In this document: piece by piece, positions 26,234 through 59,439 of the stretch
Numbering within the stretch: the first letter of the stretch is position 1
Layout of the letters: each line of letters starts with the position of its first letter
Source: Paenisporosarcina cavernae
GTDB lineage: Bacteria; Bacillota; Bacilli; Bacillales_A; Planococcaceae
Reading direction: 5' to 3'
Assembly (NCBI RefSeq): GCF_003595195.1
Contig: NZ_CP032418.1
Coordinates: forward strand, 1,252,501-1,316,500
DNA length: 64,000 nucleotides
The notes under the pieces: generated by a model
What the model was told of the DNA's origin: nothing
Databases searched by the model: none
Seen by the model: only the letters and a program-made list of their open reading frames with translations
Translations under genes and position numbers: made by a program

Positions 26234-27025
26234 TTAACTAGCCATGTGCTCTAATCGGATTTTGTCTGCAATCATCGCGATAAACTCAGAATTTGTTGGT
26301 TTACTTTTCAAATGATGAACCGTATAGCCAAACATTTTCGAAATGGACTCGTAATTTCCTCTATTCCACGCAACTTCTATCGCATGCCGTATAGCTCGTT
26401 CAACTCGAGAAGGAGTTGTATTGAATTTACTTGCGATGTCTGGATATAACACCTTCGTTACGGAACCAAGCAATTCAATATCCACATACACCATATGAAT
26501 CGCTTCTCTTAAATAAGAATATCCCTTAATATGAGCTGGAACTCCAATTTCTTTAATTACTGCTGTAATTGTGGTATCAATTACCTTTTGTGACTTAGGA
26601 GCATTTGCATAAGGCTGTAACACACTGTTTCTCGTTGTTTTTAGTTGCTCATTTCCAGATATTTGAATAATTTTCATTACTAATTGGTCAAACTCAAATG
26701 GTTTTAACATGAAATAAGAAGCCCCATACTCGACAGCAGATTTCATAACATCTTCTTGACCGAAAGCCGTTAGCATAATTACTGGCAGATCTTTCAGATC
26801 AGGTTGTTGTTTTAGTTGCTCTAAAACAGCGATTCCGTCTAAATGTGGCATAATAATATCTAGCAACAGAACATCCGGTTTTTCTTCTTGAATTTGTGCA
26901 AGGCACGTTTTACCATTATTCGCCGTACCAATTACCTCAATCGTATCTTGATTGTTTAAATACGCTTCTAACGTATTTACTAACTCCTTATTGTCATCTG
27001 CAATAAAAACTCGAACTTTTTCCAC
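26234..27025 (-). CDS. spo0A: Spo0A, master response regulator of sporulation and stationary phase
   Basis: 263 residues from the GTG at 27025, seven bases after AGGGGG; a TTG one codon earlier is too close to it. Receiver domain with Asp10-Asp11, phosphoacceptor Asp56 in LLLDIIMP, the MLTAFGQED switch threonine and LKPFEF lysine. A linker of about 20 residues follows, then the DNA-binding domain with the signature [19 protein letters not shown] recognition helix and [18 protein letters not shown] end. All key residues are intact, so it should be a working regulator even though other sporulation genes here are reduced. Upstream are 0A-box-like sites. Confidence 0.97.
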
Positions 27026-27085
27026 CAATATTCCCCCTAATAATGGTTAAACAAGTGACACATAACTCCCTGTTTCCACAGACTG

Positions 27086-27391: not shown

Positions 27392-28339
27392 TTAGCTTGC
27401 TTCTTTTATCATTTCTTCAATTCCAATTGCAGTTCCTTTCATTGGTTTCTCCACGACCATGTGTGTAATAGCACCAATGAAAAGCCCATCTTGCAGAACG
27501 GGACTACCACTCATTCCTTGTAGAATACCGCCTGTTTTTTTTAATAACTGTTGATCATCAACTTCAAAGGAAAAGGAAGGTGGATGTACGTCTGTAATAT
27601 TAATAGTGAATTCCTGAACTTCTTTACCAGCAATCGTCGTTCGAATGATCGCATTTCCTTCTTTCACTTGTTGAATTTCTGCTGTTTCAACTGTTGGATT
27701 AGATTTCATTTGTTCCTCAGAAATCGTTCCAAATATCCCAAGAGGCTTATTGGAAAGTATTTTTCCTAACTTTGTCGGGGAAAGACTGTTTTTCGCAATT
27801 TTATATCCCGGTATCCCTGGTGAGCTTCGTTGAACACGAATTATTTCGGTTTCAAAGATATCCCCTGCGATAAATTTTGTAACATCCACTTGATTGTGAA
27901 TGAGAATTGGATGACCTAGCGCACCAAACTGATGTGTTGCAGGATTAATATACGTCAGTGTTCCGATTCCTTTTGCTTTGTTAGAAAACATGTAACTCAT
28001 ACCACTCGATTCTTCTTTCGTTAATATCAAGGAGTGGTTCTTTTTATCACGCTTGATGATTATTTCGGAAGATCGAAGTTGCACATCCTGCTGCATTTTC
28101 GAAAACGTTTTTTCAGAATCCATGGATTGATTGTTCCATGAAATTAGTTGATCTCCAGCCTTCACCCATTTTCCACTTTCTAACAACACATCATGTTGCG
28201 CAGTATAGGTGGAAAAATCCATCTCAACGCCAATCGACTCGCCCATTGGAATGAGTGATTCCGCATATGCATATGAAAAAGAAAATGAACACATACTAAC
28301 CAACAGACAAGCAGCAAAAAATGAGCGCAGTTTTTTCAT
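27392..28339 (-). CDS. spoIVB: SpoIVB, signalling serine peptidase (S55), short form
   Basis: 315 residues against about 425 in B. subtilis. An N-terminal signal anchor (residues 6-26) is followed by a shortened PDZ-like region (about 30-110) and the S55 peptidase domain. Catalytic residues appear intact: His in FGALGHP, an Asp pair in FEVDDQQLL and Ser in GMSGSPVLQ. In sporulation SpoIVB is secreted from the forespore and triggers pro-sigma-K processing by cleaving SpoIVFA. The missing ~110 residues lie before the peptidase domain. Sits between spo0A and recN as in Bacillus. Confidence 0.9.
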   Translation of the reverse strand: MKKLRSFFAACLLVSMCSFSFSYAYAESLIPMGESIGVEMDFSTYTAQHDVLLESGKWVKAGDQLISWNNQSMDSEKTFSKMQQDVQLRSSEIIIKRDKKNHSLILTKEESSGMSYMFSNKAKGIGTLTYINPATHQFGALGHPILIHNQVDVTKFIAGDIFETEIIRVQRSSPGIPGYKIAKNSLSPTKLGKILSNKPLGIFGTISEEQMKSNPTVETAEIQQVKEGNAIIRTTIAGKEVQEFTINITDVHPPSFSFEVDDQQLLKKTGGILQGMSGSPVLQDGLFIGAITHMVVEKPMKGTAIGIEEMIKEAS

Positions 28340-39488: not shown

Positions 39489-39998
39489 TTAGTTTGCTTT
39501 AACCAAGAATAAGGCTTGGCCATACTCAACTAATTGTCCGTCTTTTACTAAAATCTCTACGATTTCACCGGAAACTTCAGCTTCAATCTCGTTAAACAAT
39601 TTCATCGCTTCTACAATACATACAACCGAATCTGCAGATACTTTATCGCCAACTTGTACAAATGCTGGTGTTTCTGGAGAAGAAGCTTGATAAAAAGTTC
39701 CTACCATTGGCGAGGTGATTTTTAATAGAGATTCGTCTTGAGAGTCAGCTTTCTCAACCGAAGTTTGTTCGCTAGGTGCCGTTTGTGCAGCAGCTGGTGT
39801 TGGAGTAACGGCAACAGGCTGTGGTTGAGGAACTACAGGTGCTGAAATAGATGAAACTCCTTGCGGTGCTTGAATAGTGGAACCTGTTGCGTTCTTTTTC
39901 AATTTCACTTTTGAACCTTCTGATTCGAATACAAATTCATCAATGGATGAGTGATCGATAAGTTTAATAATTTCTCTAATTTCTTGAATTTTTAACAT
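39489..39998 (-). CDS. accB: Acetyl-CoA carboxylase biotin carboxyl carrier protein
   Basis: 169 residues. N-terminal helical segment ([19 protein letters not shown]), a flexible Pro/Ala/Gln linker (about 45-85) and a C-terminal biotinyl domain with biotinylated Lys133 in [10 protein letters not shown]. First gene of accB-accC-asp23. Upstream a T/A-rich leader with TAAAAT may hold its promoter but the -35 is weak. Confidence 0.95.
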
Positions 39999-40102: not shown

Positions 40103-40127
40103 GAAAAAGGACCTAAAAGGTCCTCCT
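40103..40127 (-). terminator. Terminator of the spoIIIA-like operon
   Basis: GGACCT-TTT-AGGTCC stem on the minus strand followed by TTTTTC, four bases after the spoIIIAH stop. Confidence 0.75.
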
Positions 40128-40130
40128 TTG

Positions 40131-40664
40131 TTAGTCATTCGTATCAAATTGAACACTGACTTCACGCGCATTTTCCCATTCTTTTCGAACTGTGTAGATA
40201 ATTTCATTCGCTAATGCTTTTGATTCTTCTTCTGACTGAACATGTACATATACTTTTTCTCCATCTGTCTTTACAAAAGCATCCGAATAACCAAGTGATT
40301 GAATGAGCATTTCTAGCATCGCCTCAGCAGAACTTTGTTTGGTTAATTGTTCCATTTTTGAATATGCTTCATTTTTCTCTTCTGCCGTTGCTGTATCAGA
40401 TGCAATTAAACTAGTTAGTTGTTCCCTAACTTGACTTCTCTCGTCTTGTAATTCTAACCTCATGTCCTCAAATAATGTGGAGGGTGCCATAACCGGTGTT
40501 GTCTCATCCTCGTCTGTATTAGACAATATATCCGCTGCTTGATCGGTGAATAGCGATACCCCATCCAACGAGAGCGATTTCGGTTCATTTGCATAATAGA
40601 CGGAAATTACTGCGACTAAACTTAATAAAGTCAATAACCATACATTTCTTCTTTTAACTTTCAC
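40131..40664 (-). CDS. spoIIIAH: SpoIIIAH, forespore-mother-cell channel ring protein
   Basis: 177 residues (B. subtilis 218). One N-terminal transmembrane helix (NVWLLTLLSLVAVISVYY), an acidic linker much shorter than usual, and the YscJ/FliF-like ring-building domain with LFEDMRLELQDERSQVREQL, a helix ending NEAYSKMEQL and a C-terminal beta sheet (VYVHVQSEE, EVSVQFD). In sporulation it binds SpoIIQ across the septum. GTG start overlapping spoIIIAG by 11 bases. This is the best preserved protein of the locus. Confidence 0.9.
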   Translation of the reverse strand: MKVKRRNVWLLTLLSLVAVISVYYANEPKSLSLDGVSLFTDQAADILSNTDEDETTPVMAPSTLFEDMRLELQDERSQVREQLTSLIASDTATAEEKNEAYSKMEQLTKQSSAEAMLEMLIQSLGYSDAFVKTDGEKVYVHVQSEEESKALANEIIYTVRKEWENAREVSVQFDTND

Positions 40665-41106
40665 TTGGACTTTTCCCCCTTGTCATTTGTGTCACGATGA
40701 TTCGATGCTCTGGAAGTAAGAAAAGATTTGCCACCGTTTCTTTAAGGAGCCTCTTGATGTGAGGATTTTCCGCGCCTTCGGCAACGATCAGAACCGATTG
40801 TATTTCTAGACTTGTCTTTTCTTCCTTTGCAAAGATTGCTTCAAAAGAAGGCGTATTTGACGTCTCGTTTGAAGATTCTCCCTTATTCAAAAACACTCGT
40901 ACTTCACCAACTTGGTCCATTTTTTGCAAAATTTGTTCCAACGTTTTTTCCGTCGATTGTAACTCCGTCTCTTCAGATGACGAAAAGGAAGACGTTGTTT
41001 TATTCCACAGAAAAAGAAGTAACAAAACGGTTAAGAGAAGAAACGGTATTGTTTTTGATGTCATGTGAAAAGGAGTTGCCATACGCACCATCCATCGCTG
41101 CCACAA
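40654..41106 (-). CDS. spoIIIAG: SpoIIIAG, shortened ring protein
   Basis: 150 residues (B. subtilis 229). Transmembrane helix at about 20-35, then a ring-building motif. The core strands are recognisable (VGEVRVFLNKG; IQSVLIVAEGAENPHIKRLL; VANLFLLPEHRIIV). Between VFLNKG and IQSVLIVAEG only about 25 residues remain, where the Bacillus protein has a long beta insertion of some 70 residues. Initiation is uncertain: a TTG at 41106 and ATGs at 41091 and 41082 all lack a good ribosome site. Most likely expressed by coupling from the preceding genes. Confidence 0.82.
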   Translation of the reverse strand: MWQRWMVRMATPFHMTSKTIPFLLLTVLLLLFLWNKTTSSFSSSEETELQSTEKTLEQILQKMDQVGEVRVFLNKGESSNETSNTPSFEAIFAKEEKTSLEIQSVLIVAEGAENPHIKRLLKETVANLFLLPEHRIIVTQMTRGKSPSES

Positions 41107-41141
41107 TCTAAGATAATCTATGCGAGAGTTCTAGCCTACAT

Positions 41142-41294
41142 TCATAAAAGACGAAAAAAGGTCAAAAAAATGACTGTCGCGATCATGAATTTTGTTAACA
41201 GTAATAGTCGTTCCAATGCCGTTTTAGTAAGATGTGGCTCAAGAAAGGCTTGTACGAGCGTAAATAAAAGTAAAAGAAGAATTAGTTGTCTCAT
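41142..41294 (-). CDS. 50-residue two-helix protein in the spoIIIAF position (SpoIIIAF stub)
   Basis: Open frame of 50 codons whose ATG overlaps the spoIIIAE stop as ATGA, the classic coupled arrangement, and ends 35 bases before spoIIIAG. The product is two hydrophobic helices (LILLLLLFTLVQAFL and FMIATVIFLTFFRLL) joined by a short polar loop EPHLTKTALER. SpoIIIAF is normally about 205 residues with exactly two N-terminal membrane helices followed by a soluble ring domain, which is entirely absent here. Too short for ordinary gene callers. I infer a SpoIIIAF reduced to its membrane part; similarity is too weak to prove it. Confidence 0.6.
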   Translation of the reverse strand: MRQLILLLLLFTLVQAFLEPHLTKTALERLLLLTKFMIATVIFLTFFRLL

Positions 41295-42202
41295 CCCATA
41301 CCTCGCATAATAGCTACCCATTTCATATAAAAAACGACAAACATTACCGTATAAAATAACGCAAACACAAACAGTAAAGAAATTAACAATAAGGAAAAAA
41401 GAGTTCTCCCAATATCATCAACAAAATCAGGTAAATCGTCTGGAGCAAAAGGTTCAATAATGGCCGCAATGAATCGATAACAAAAGGCTAATAGCGCAAT
41501 TTTGACACTCGGTAATAAAATGGCTGTGACCAAGATACCTGTTAAAGTTAGCCCCGTTAAGCTGGAGATATGCTGACTAATAGAAGTAAAAGTAGATAAC
41601 CCTTCTGTCAGAGCAGATCCGACAAAAGGAATGTTTTGCTGAATCCATTTTTTGATTGGCACAGAAAAGACAGGAGAAATACTCGATTGCACCATGCCGC
41701 TCATGCCTATAAAGAAAGAATACAAAAAGACAATGATGCTGACACCACTTAGTAAAGAGAGTCTCATTAAATCTGTAAATTTTGTAAAGGAGAGATCAGG
41801 TTGTAATCGACTCATAAAATCTAGCAAGATGGTGACGACTAAAAATGGAAGCAAAATAGCATTTGATACAAACAAAGCAATTTGAATAAATAAAAATAGT
41901 GTTGGTTGCCATAAGGAAAAGGAAACAAATTCCCCACTTGAAAGAAGGCTTGCACTTAACAGTGGATACATGGTGAAAAATAAGTGCAGGATAGCGCCTG
42001 TGTATTTCTTCATATCCAATATTGCAGAAATAGCTGGTTGGCAAAGTACACTAATTGTTAGAAGGAATAGAAACAGACGGATGAGTTTTTCATTCGTTGG
42101 AAAAAGCTGTTGGAATAATAAGGAAAGATATATACTGACAAGAAAGATCGCAAATGGTGAGAGAAACTCCTTGATTAACTCAATTAGAATTGAAATAAGC
42201 AT
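41291..42202 (-). CDS. spoIIIAE: SpoIIIAE, polytopic membrane protein, N-terminally short
   Basis: 303 residues (B. subtilis about 400). Roughly eight transmembrane segments; family landmarks include the LLSGVSIIVFLYSFFIGMSGM and VPIKKWIQQNIPFVGSALTEG regions. The N-terminal signal and extracellular domain of about 90 residues is missing, and there is no room for it since spoIIIAD ends six bases upstream. Permease-like subunit of the SpoIIIA complex. An AGGGG ribosome site sits almost against the ATG. Confidence 0.85.
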   Translation of the reverse strand: MLISILIELIKEFLSPFAIFLVSIYLSLLFQQLFPTNEKLIRLFLFLLTISVLCQPAISAILDMKKYTGAILHLFFTMYPLLSASLLSSGEFVSFSLWQPTLFLFIQIALFVSNAILLPFLVVTILLDFMSRLQPDLSFTKFTDLMRLSLLSGVSIIVFLYSFFIGMSGMVQSSISPVFSVPIKKWIQQNIPFVGSALTEGLSTFTSISQHISSLTGLTLTGILVTAILLPSVKIALLAFCYRFIAAIIEPFAPDDLPDFVDDIGRTLFSLLLISLLFVFALFYTVMFVVFYMKWVAIMRGMG

Positions 42203-42208
42203 TCCCCT

Positions 42209-42589
42209 CTATGAGAGCGTGGAAAGTTGAAATAGTTGTTGGATGATTGGGACCCAATAAGGCTTCCAGAGAAGCAACAATTGCACACCTATGATAATGG
42301 GAAGTAGGATTTGAAAGATGTTAGCTCGTACATCTATTGCCAAAGCTCGTAAAATTTCCCCAATTAATAAGAGTAAAAAGGATTGTCCGATGATCCAAAA
42401 GAGCGGAGAAATAGTCGGTGGTATCACATCTTCAATTTGTAGAAATGTTGGTAGAAGTAGTTCTTGCATGACAGATACGCCAAGAAGAACAAAAAACATA
42501 TAAGTTAGTAAATGATGATATCTTGGAGAAACTTCTTGAAAAAAGAGGAGCAATAGAAAAATTAGAAATAGAAAACCGAGATAAATCAT
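42209..42589 (-). CDS. spoIIIAD: SpoIIIAD-like membrane protein, strongly diverged
   Basis: 126 residues (family about 130), four predicted transmembrane helices, very rich in Leu, Ile and Phe. The family landmark around the conserved membrane glutamate is still visible (GEILRALAIDVRANIFQILLPI), but elsewhere similarity is low. Identification rests on size, topology and position between AC and AE. Its ATG overlaps the spoIIIAC stop by one base (TGATG). Confidence 0.72.
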   Translation of the reverse strand: MIYLGFLFLIFLLLLFFQEVSPRYHHLLTYMFFVLLGVSVMQELLLPTFLQIEDVIPPTISPLFWIIGQSFLLLLIGEILRALAIDVRANIFQILLPIIIGVQLLLLWKPYWVPIIQQLFQLSTLS

Positions 42590-42798
42590 CAGTTATCCTT
42601 GTCAAATAAATGAAAAAAAGTTTGCAAATCATCAAAGAAAATGGCTAAAAAACGAAACATTTCAGCGGCCATATATAAGTACCCAAAAACAAATAGAAAA
42701 AAAGTAAATTCTTTCTTACCAGTCTGTTCAAAAAACAGATGAAGAAAGGCAAGAATAATACCTACCGTAGCAATTCGAAGAATGTCTGTAAATTCCAC
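42589..42798 (-). CDS. spoIIIAC: SpoIIIAC membrane protein
   Basis: 69 residues, GTG start behind GGGGGG. Two transmembrane helices; pattern close to B. subtilis SpoIIIAC (RIATVGIILAFLHLFFEQTGKKE). Here it is the first gene of the locus, whereas spoIIIAA and spoIIIAB normally come before it. Upstream there are only 129 bases to efp, filled by a terminator and a putative sigma-E promoter. Confidence 0.82.
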   Translation of the reverse strand: MEFTDILRIATVGIILAFLHLFFEQTGKKEFTFFLFVFGYLYMAAEMFRFLAIFFDDLQTFFHLFDKDN

Positions 42799-42818: not shown

Positions 42819-42847
42819 AACTTATGACAAGTGTCGTTGCTTTATGA
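42819..42847 (-). promoter_or_regulatory. Putative sigma-E promoter of the spoIIIAC-AH operon
   Basis: On the minus strand TCATAAA (42847-42841), a 14-base spacer and CATAAGTT (42826-42819) fit the sigma-E pattern (-35 with ATA, -10 CATACAMT) at moderate quality. Start of transcription would fall some 15 bases before the ribosome site of spoIIIAC. Confidence 0.35.
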
Positions 42848-42867: not shown

Positions 42868-42913
42868 TAAGAAAAACCTCCTATCACCTACTTAGAGGGA
42901 TAGAAGGTTTTCA
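42868..42913 (-). terminator. Terminator of the yqhR-aroQ-prolidase-efp operon
   Basis: On the minus strand AAAACCTTCTATC pairs with GATAGGAGGTTTT (one mismatch) around a loop, followed by TTTC. It isolates efp from the sporulation genes. Confidence 0.75.
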
Positions 42914-42927
42914 ATTAGTTAAAGCAA

Positions 42928-43488
42928 TTATTGCGCTCGTGAAACATACGAAGAATCTGTTGTATTAATAATTAACTTATCTCCTTGGTTCACGAAAAAT
43001 GGAACTTGAACGGAAAGTCCTGTTTCTAAGATCGCAGGTTTGGTACCACCACTTGCAGTGTCTCCTTTAATTCCTGGCTCTGTTTCCGTAACTTCTAATA
43101 CTACTGTATTTGGCAGTTCGACTCCAAGCGTCTCGCCATTATATTGCATAATGTGTACTTCCATATTTTCACGCAAGAATTTTAACTCATATTCGATTTG
43201 TGAGGCAGAAAGTTCTAATTGCTCATAGCTTTCTGTATCCATGAAGATATGATCGTCTCCATTAGCATAAAGGTACTGCATTTTTTTGTTATCAATTTGC
43301 GCTTTTTCTACTTTCTCTCCAGCTCGAAACGTTTTTTCATTCACAGCACCGGTACGCAAATTGCGTAATTTAGAACGAACAAATGCTGCTCCTTTACCAG
43401 GTTTAACATGTTGAAAATCCATTACACGCCAGATAGAGCCATCTACTTCGATTGTTAAGCCTGTTTTAAAATCATTTACTGAAATCAT
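42928..43488 (-). CDS. efp: Translation elongation factor P
   Basis: 186 residues, three beta-barrel domains as in all EF-P. The loop modification site Lys32 lies in [12 protein letters not shown]. It relieves ribosome stalling at polyproline. It follows the prolidase gene by 16 bases, an arrangement shared with B. subtilis yqhT-efp. Confidence 0.97.
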
Positions 43489-58439: not shown

Positions 58440-59439
58440 TGAGCAAACCCTCTCTTAATTGAAACCGAATCGTTTTTTCTATTGGCAATTCGTATTCCCA
58501 TCCCTCTGAGAGATAGGACAAACAATCAGATAACGAAGCACCTTGTAATATCTCTACTAATGCTTTTCGTTTTTTCCCCTTTTCGATTTCCTCCGACGTG
58601 ATTTCAACTAATTGCTGAGAAACAAGTGCTAATACACCTTGTCGAATATCCTCCATTCGAACTCCCAGATCTCGTAAACGAAAAATGGAACCAATTGAAT
58701 TCGATGCATGAATCGTTGACAATACTAAATGACCTGTTAGTGCTGCTTCCATAGCGATACTAGCCGTTTCAGAATCCCTAATCTCGCCGATGAAAATAAT
58801 ATCTGGAGAGTGACGGAGTAATGACTTAATTCCCTTTGCATAGGAAAGGCCAGCATTTTCGTTTACTTGAACTTGTAAAACATTGGCTAGTTTAATTTCA
58901 ATGGGGTCTTCAATTGCGATGACATTTTTCCGAAGGACTTGTGCACAATATTGCAACATGGAATACGCAGAAGTCGTTTTTCCAGTTCCTGTTGCTCCTG
59001 CTATACAAATTAAACCGTAACGGTTTGACAAGAGGAGGCGAAAATAATCAGCCATATCTTCTTGAAAAAATAGATCATCTAAACTTTTGGTCTGTAAATG
59101 GGATTGAAATCGTAGTGCCACACTTTCCAAATTATGCGCTGAAGGAAGTGTAGAGAGACGAATCGAAAAAGCGATATTTTGAAGTTCTAGCTCGAAAGAG
59201 CCGCTTTGAGGTTTGCGTTTTTCACTTATGTCTAATTGCGCTAACAATTTCCAATAGGTGATGAGTCGTATCCCTAATTCCAGTGGGAGTGAACAATACA
59301 TGGTTAATTGTTCCTGTATTCTGTAGACAATGGAAAAATGATTATCTTTGGGGATAAGATGAAGATCAGTAGCATGGAGATCTAATGCTTGTTGAAAAAA
59401 ATTAACACTCTTTTTTTCTAATAATTGGTTTATTGTCAT
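58414..59439 (-). CDS. comGA: ComGA, traffic ATPase of the competence pilus
   Basis: 341 residues from MTINQLLEKK (an ATG four codons earlier is possible; both have weak ribosome sites). GspE/PilB-type: Walker A GATGTGKTTS near residue 145, Asp box IAIEDPIE, Walker B FIGEIRDSETA and His box ATLTGHLVLSTIHA-like segment. The zinc-binding four-cysteine motif of many GspE proteins, present in B. subtilis ComGA, is absent; VEITSEEIEKGKKR stands in its place. No clear ComK box pair was found upstream. Confidence 0.92.
   Translation of the reverse strand: MTINQLLEKKSVNFFQQALDLHATDLHLIPKDNHFSIVYRIQEQLTMYCSLPLELGIRLITYWKLLAQLDISEKRKPQSGSFELELQNIAFSIRLSTLPSAHNLESVALRFQSHLQTKSLDDLFFQEDMADYFRLLLSNRYGLICIAGATGTGKTTSAYSMLQYCAQVLRKNVIAIEDPIEIKLANVLQVQVNENAGLSYAKGIKSLLRHSPDIIFIGEIRDSETASIAMEAALTGHLVLSTIHASNSIGSIFRLRDLGVRMEDIRQGVLALVSQQLVEITSEEIEKGKKRKALVEILQGASLSDCLSYLSEGWEYELPIEKTIRFQLREGLLNGSFYPTN

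Follow-up and report, generated by a model that had tools for sequence, protein, structure and literature searches.

How a spore-forming bacterium might link its mother cell to the forespore without the ATPase of the SpoIIIA complex is the question raised by a short spoIIIA operon of Paenisporosarcina cavernae (family Planococcaceae). The operon is located in the window analyzed here, a stretch of 64,000 nucleotides of contig NZ_CP032418.1, which represents a genome of 2,537,131 bp (2.54 Mb) in a single contig with a completeness of 99.94%. On the minus strand, the genes follow the order AC-AD-AE-mini-AF-AG-AH (the prefix spoIIIA being omitted), flanked by efp upstream and accB downstream; the latter name is one that we take from the position of the gene. 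An earlier interpretation based on the DNA letters alone, hereafter the sequence-only reading, had described a minimal spoIIIA locus without AA and AB, and had regarded it as a streamlined complex under selection. Our results favor, with a probability of roughly 0.68, a working, reduced, ATPase-free SpoIIIA–SpoIIQ complex without AA and AB. Because the AA gene is gone while the trimmed operon was kept, the link between mother cell and spore probably operates without this motor.

Absence of SpoIIIAA and SpoIIIAB in the family

Searches of the window genome with curated models detected neither protein. The AA model yielded a single match at E ≤ 0.001, located within a 435-aa frame and reaching 23.7 bits (cut-off 281.3), and the AB model yielded nothing at this threshold; relocation of the two genes to another site of the genome was ruled out by these searches, and the proposed absence of AA and AB was thereby confirmed. 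The efp–AC gap comprises 129 bp, as the sequence-only reading had stated. Profiles built from eight proteins each of AA and AB recovered a training sequence used as positive control and found no trace at E ≤ 1 in the gaps of the window and 67 relatives, ruling out remnants between efp and AC in these 68 gaps, in agreement with the sequence-only reading.

To determine the distribution of the genes, 200 genomes of the Planococcaceae, including the one studied here, were searched at the curated cut-offs, B. subtilis being detected each time as positive control for AA, AB, and AE. Neither AA (best score 29.3 bits) nor AB (three sub-threshold matches) exceeded its cut-off in any of the 200 genomes, whereas AE did so in 151 of them. 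Sub-threshold AA matches (E ≤ 0.001) occurred in 193 of the 200 genomes; those listed were located in frames of 414–488 or 338–359 aa and, judged from the profile positions, are taken for P-loop stretches of other proteins.

A class-wide draw of 240 genomes contained AE in 170, namely 13 inside and 157 outside the family. AA was present at E ≤ 1e-20 in 158 genomes (155 above the cut-off) and AF (PF09581) in 157, and each of the 157 non-family genomes with AE also carried AA and AF, as determined by comparing the lists by eye and counting the common list; one fragmented genome (G271) featured AA and not AE. In an order-level draw, AA was found in none of 200 genomes, only family members being among the matches listed. 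Within the sampled genomes, AA and AE thus always occurred together outside the family, and AA was never found inside it. AE itself is far more diverged inside the family (best E 4.4e-37) than outside (worst E 1.1e-65). Since AA was found in 0 of 200 family genomes and in 157 of 157 AE-bearing genomes outside, the loss of AA and AB is a family trait and not peculiar to the window genome, and most simply dates back to the family's common ancestor. The reduced locus described by the sequence-only reading is therefore real, but not particular to this genome.

The same layout, lacking AA and AB, was found in 73 loci from several genera and throughout the sampled family, with AC-to-AH spans of approximately 2.6–2.9 kb in the relatives. 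The closest AE proteins belong to five Paenisporosarcina records (44–46% identity) and one metagenome-assembled genome (49%), followed by Sporosarcina, Psychrobacillus, Filibacter, Viridibacillus, Rummeliibacillus, and Bhargavaea. A record titled 'Arthrobacter beigongshangensis strain REN13' (L109) also carries a Sporosarcina-like efp–spoIIIA–accB locus; its label or assembly is probably wrong.

The reduced, family-wide operon is already in print (2012, 2021), where it was left unexplained. In the accessible text of the 2012 study, AA, AB, AD, and AF were listed as missing in Lysinibacillus sphaericus C3-41, a genome set aside as insufficiently reliable (PMC3533761). The accessible text of the 2021 study reported AA, AB, and AF, as well as SpoIIM, SpoIIB, and GerM, to be missing in spore-forming Planococcaceae, left the mechanism to be elucidated, and gave Spo0A, AC, AD, AE, AG, AH, SpoIIQ, D, and P as the Sporosarcina signature, in which AG is included, yet it is called absent in the discussion (PMC7924749). 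The absence of AA and AB agrees with our results. However, whereas these sources regard AF, and in places AD or AG, as absent, AF can be traced here in the form of a short, conserved gene, and AG in that of a ring protein from which the insert is missing. Our literature search, for which subscription papers were mostly out of reach, revealed no report of a short AF or an insert-less AG in the texts accessible to it. As far as seen, the description of a mini-AF and of an AG lacking its insert is new, and so are the exact match between the occurrence of AE and that of SpoIIQ and the promoter at a fixed distance.

Reduction of the remaining SpoIIIA proteins

Compared to B. subtilis, the family locus shares the gene order from AC to AH, the neighbors efp and accB, a sigma-E-like promoter, the ring-building folds of AG and AH, and the partner SpoIIQ. 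It differs in lacking AA and AB, in an AF cut back to a membrane hairpin, in an AG insert shorter by about 35–40 residues, and in an AE without the N-terminal ~95 residues. All frames of the window locus are open. AC and AD are joined by a TGATG coupling and AE and AF by an ATGA overlap, AD and AE are separated by 6 nt, AF and AG by 35 nt (AG being counted from its listed TTG start), and AG and AH overlap by 11 nt. The couplings, open frames, and clean terminator after AH noted in the sequence-only reading were all recovered, as were the likely efp terminator and the plausible sigma-E promoter in the efp–AC gap. The efp hairpin, with its 13-nt loop, was outside the reach of the palindrome scan, which was limited to loops of 8 nt. 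The features of the locus and its neighborhood are compiled in Table 1.

Table 1. Positions within the window and supporting evidence for the spoIIIA locus and neighboring features.
Feature	Position	Strand	Evidence or remark
efp (elongation factor P)	42928..43488	minus	Pfam and NCBIfam matches above cut-off
Likely efp terminator hairpin	42871..42910	minus	stem of 11 pairs including a G-U, loop of 13 nt, TTTTT tail; by eye
Sigma-E-like promoter	42819..42846	minus	CATAAA-N14-CATAAGTT; starts 48 nt upstream of AC start
spoIIIAC	42589..42798	minus	69 aa, GTG start; TIGR02848 E 6e-8 and PF06686 E 1.4e-4, both below cut-off
spoIIIAD, highly diverged	42209..42589	minus	126 aa; position and TGATG coupling to AC
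spoIIIAE	41291..42202	minus	303 aa; PF09546 E 1.4e-25, above cut-off, from profile position 67
mini-spoIIIAF, predicted membrane hairpin only	41142..41294	minus	50 aa; ATGA overlap with AE; position, hydropathy
spoIIIAG	40654..41106	minus	150 aa; TIGR02830 E 1.4e-12, below cut-off
spoIIIAH	40131..40664	minus	177 aa; PF12685 E 8.2e-25, above cut-off; solved SpoIIIAH chains 3uz0, 3tuf
Operon terminator hairpin, then TTTT	40103..40124	minus	Palindrome scan (plus-strand entry) and reading of the sequence
accB (presumed), downstream neighbor	39489..39998	minus	Biotin_lipoyl PF00364 E 1.1e-23
spoIVB, open frame	27392..28339	minus	TIGR02860 E 4.3e-61, below its cut-off
spo0A, same chromosomal neighborhood	26234..27028	minus	TIGR02875 E 2.2e-112, above cut-off

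The genes AC, AE, AG, and AH were located between efp and accB by their models, those of AC and AG remaining below the NCBIfam cut-offs here. Aligned with the AC proteins of genomes that carry AA, the family AC profile reached 97.1% in hhalign (E 5.9e-11), and the corresponding AD comparison was weak (33.5%, E 4.4e-4). A gene of the right place and size for AD is present in 71 of the 73 loci; the AD of the window has no Pfam or NCBIfam match, and AD and AF of this genome were identified mainly by position. For AE, the N-terminal shortening by about 95 residues proposed in the sequence-only reading was borne out, yet it is family-wide, the median length being 299 aa in the 73 loci and 389–407 aa in eight AA-bearing genomes. 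The predicted structure of AE is all helical (mean predicted local distance difference test score, pLDDT, 74.7) and matched no solved structure (best E 0.2).

The short open reading frame following AE most likely represents a reduced AF, namely the membrane hairpin without the ring domain. A frame matching a 21-member mini-AF profile was detected between AE and AG in all 73 loci, including 52 of 52 outside the training set, many of which are close relatives of it, and this profile found it in 28 of 30 loci of a second set, missing two (L015 and L021; E 0.037 each on closer look). Where the start codon is clear, the product comprises approximately 44–59 aa. The family profile matched full-length AF (hhalign 94.0%, E 1.4e-7; 94.9% without the row of the window) within AF residues 1–57 only, whereas controls reached 0.4% against AC, 0.3% against reversed AF, and a best score of 24.3 in 200 column shuffles versus the real 43.9. 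Because the family profile matches the first 57 residues of full AF and the controls do not, AF was cut back to its membrane hairpin rather than lost. None of the 157 PF09581 matches of the class-wide draw, representing the soluble ring domain, fell inside the family, and Pfam searches with 22 mini-AFs gave nothing usable, the best being one SpoIIIAC match (E 0.0032). The window's own mini-AF obtained nothing at E ≤ 0.01 with the 21-member profile (E 17 for the right frame, 3.1 for a wrong one); with a profile built from six members of the genus, the right frame ranked first among the frames of the window, at an E of only 0.06. It is recognized by place, coupling, and hydropathy, without significant similarity of its own.

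The AlphaFold2 model of AG shows one membrane helix and a helix-strand-strand-helix-strand fold (mean pLDDT 72.6), with 56 of 150 residues at pLDDT ≥ 90, mostly in the fold, and residues 79–98 below 50. In Foldseek, the top ranks went to PrgK and related proteins (best E 3.3e-4), followed by SpoIIIAG 5wc3 (E 3.5e-3) and SpoIIIAF 6dcs (E 0.03). The inner rings of type III secretion systems (PrgK/EscJ) and the flagellar MS ring (FliF) thus share the ring-building fold of AG (E 3e-4 and weaker), but the operon contains neither an ATPase nor an export apparatus, and the likeness is one of a single domain, not of membership. The AG starts were re-chosen, automatic calls giving 3 to 158 aa in some loci, and 41 of the 73 sequences were kept after length and redundancy filters. 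A profile of 40 of them (L145 omitted) plus the window matched chain residues 129–175 of 5wc3 strongly and residues 44–89 weakly (first half 9.8 bits, independent E 6.1), about 40 chain residues in between (~90–128) facing four profile positions. The spacing between the motif strands was 34 residues in the window and 32–39 in 35 of the 41 family sequences, one giving no value and the values 46, 46, 62, 66, and 82 being wrong motif picks; outside the family it was 68–78 in 25 of 30 sequences, five giving no value. AG keeps the ring-building motif and is about 35–40 residues short between its first two strands. In B. subtilis, the SpoIIIAG ring bears a cylindrical beta-barrel, as described in the accessible text of PMC8092281, and the stretch missing here probably corresponds to the barrel-forming insert.

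The sequence-only reading had also taken a shortening of the AH linker by about 40 residues as a sign of streamlining. This view was not supported, because in 30 non-family genomes that carry AF, the length of AH is 178–224 aa; a special shortening of AH was ruled out by these ordinary lengths among Bacilli.

Promoter, SpoIIQ, and selection

In 67 of the 71 loci whose upstream sequence was long enough, a CATR-N16-CRTA element begins 49–53 nt upstream of AC, the distance being 48 nt in the window; 0.24 loci would be expected from mononucleotide shuffling. The element is conserved and sigma-E-like by its resemblance to the sigma-E consensus. In Psychrobacillus and one Bacillus sp. (loci L128, L119, L106, and L139), the efp–AC gap extends to 0.9–2.5 kb and contains other reading frames; the distance between promoter and AC stays at 52 nt in these loci.

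Strong SpoIIQ matches (E ≤ 1.7e-45) occurred in exactly the 151 AE-bearing genomes among the 200 of the family, where the boundary to the weak matches was set post hoc at a gap in the E-values; no match reached the curated cut-off of the model. Weak SpoIIQ-like matches (E 3.4e-28 to 9.2e-21) were detected in 11 other, AE-less family genomes (G016, G026, G054, G088, G097, G098, G105, G111, G123, G163, and G196) and are possibly other M23 proteins or SpoIIQ relics. In the window genome, SpoIIQ was recognized by NF053738 with E 1.3e-52 and 178.7 bits (curated cut-off 250). This genome also encodes sigH, sigF, sigE, sigG, sigK, Spo0A, and SpoIVB, so that spoIIQ and the sigma factors named for checking in the sequence-only reading are all present, and furthermore SpoIIGA, SpoIIAA, SpoIIAB, SpoIID, and SpoIIID; SpoIIQ, SpoIVB, SpoIIAA, and SpoIIID scored below the NCBIfam cut-offs. 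Immediately downstream of sigF lies a spore germination gene of the GerA family (L224:3465-4958). Two near-alike 285-aa M23 peptidase genes (L052 and L053), located at approximately 1.37 and 1.76 Mb of the genome, are possibly lysins of related prophages.

Selection was evaluated by the ratio of nonsynonymous to synonymous substitution rates (dN/dS) in 22 disjoint close pairs of relatives, chosen on an AE dS of 0.15–1.3; because of this choice, AE is not an independent gene in the set. The ratios of AC, AE, AG, AH, efp, and accB refer to the parts aligned by tblastn, and the AF frames were chosen by hydropathy. Median dN/dS values were 0 for AC, 0.025 for AE, 0.066 for AH, 0.078 for AD (20 pairs; range to 5.2), 0.115 for AF, and 0.173 for AG, the controls efp (20 pairs) and accB giving 0.028 and 0.117. 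Compared with three genus members, the window's AC, AE, and AH featured a clear excess of changes at third codon positions, and AG and AD a small one.

Weighing of the explanations

Several observations count against a working complex in this genome. No experiment was found showing that the complex forms or works in the family. AA is required in B. subtilis (PMC2703783, PMC12720343): according to the accessible parts of these sources, deletion of AA or AB reduces sporulation to 0.001–0.003% (PMC12720343), and mutants in the ATPase motifs of AA fail at sigma-G activation (PMC2703783). One AD pair shows a dN/dS of 5.2, possibly reflecting a wrong frame or start from automatic calling. The window's AD and AF are so diverged that their homology rests on position, and its AF displays no third-position excess against the three genus members. 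Furthermore, 20 outgroup loci resemble its AE, AC, and AG less closely than they resemble the sister copies (AE 0.368 versus 0.424–0.445); this also applies to the control accC (0.796 versus 0.819–0.835), but not to efp, accB, and AH. Because of the codon pattern of AF and these lower similarities, accC included, AD and AF may be undergoing further erosion in the window genome, or this genome may just evolve at a faster pace. Its own branch is saturated at synonymous sites, so that selection on this copy is inferred, not measured. The proposed streamlining under selection thus holds for the family, given the lack of AA and AB elsewhere in the genome, the low dN/dS in close pairs (medians 0–0.17, not near 1), the promoter, and the pairing with SpoIIQ, and is carried over to this copy indirectly.

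A locus decaying in a lineage that is losing sporulation would account for these signs of divergence, AE, AC, and AG being less conserved and AD and AF barely recognizable, and for the smallest genome among nine sampled in the genus (2.54 Mb versus 2.8–4.1). This explanation is highly improbable, however, as all frames are open, promoter and terminator as well as the sporulation sigma factors and SpoIIQ are present, the layout recurs across the 73 loci of several genera, and family members with the reduced set form spores, as reported in the accessible text of PMC7924749. Alternatively, the residual complex might move nothing and serve engulfment solely as a SpoIIQ–SpoIIIAH zipper or ratchet. 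AH and SpoIIQ can be recognized clearly, SpoIIM was reported missing in these genera (PMC7924749), and the role of the channel is debated (PMC12720343), both in the accessible text of the respective source. Nevertheless, the remainder of the operon was kept, and AC and AE, membrane proteins for which a part in a zipper is not obvious, are under the strongest constraint in the operon, which renders a zipper alone unlikely.

It is also conceivable that the complex is still powered, a non-orthologous ATPase of the type IV pilus, ComG, or Tad type, or an unrelated mother-cell ATPase, having replaced SpoIIIAA. Four secretion-type ATPases are encoded in the genome, with PilB, ComGA, TadA, and PilT as best NCBIfam matches, and the gene for the competence-pilus ATPase ComGA lies inside the window (58579–59424, minus strand). 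Yet each of the four is most readily accounted for as the regular ATPase of the system to which it belongs, the single match of the AA model at E ≤ 0.001 lies at another place in the genome than any of them, AB as the expected partner is gone too, and the AC–AH span leaves no room for an added ATPase gene at the locus. Such a replacement is regarded as quite unlikely.

For the favored ATPase-free complex, the following course is proposed. The secretion-type ATPase AA and the GspF-like AB would have been lost, on the simplest view already in the family's common ancestor, and the parts that may help to form a tall, powered, and sealed channel in B. subtilis, namely the ring domain of AF, the insert of AG, and the N-terminus of AE, would have gone with the ATPase. 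The mother-cell side would keep a membrane core of AC, AD, AE, and the AF hairpin, together with AG and AH as two proteins with ring-building motifs, and SpoIIQ would be the forespore partner. Most likely, the complex is still made under sigma-E and docks on SpoIIQ around engulfment, where it may assemble into an ATP-independent gated conduit with passive passage of metabolites and/or a membrane zipper, letting sigma-G switch on, presumably with no ATPase in place of AA.

Whether SpoIIIA–SpoIIQ acts by ATP-driven secretion is a debated question in sporulation, and recent work, in its accessible text, doubts a sealed channel (PMC12720343). We see about even odds that a whole family of endospore formers runs this 'feeding tube' without a dedicated ATPase, AB, the AF ring, and the long AG insert. 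If true, the basic device would be a simpler conduit consisting of AC-AD-AE, the AF hairpin, and a pair of short rings, to which the motor and the tall sealed channel are dispensable additions, and the traffic from mother cell to forespore need not be ATP-driven secretion. Having lost the ATPase by nature and throughout, along with the parts that would build a tall powered channel, the family offers a ready comparison for the functions of the complex.

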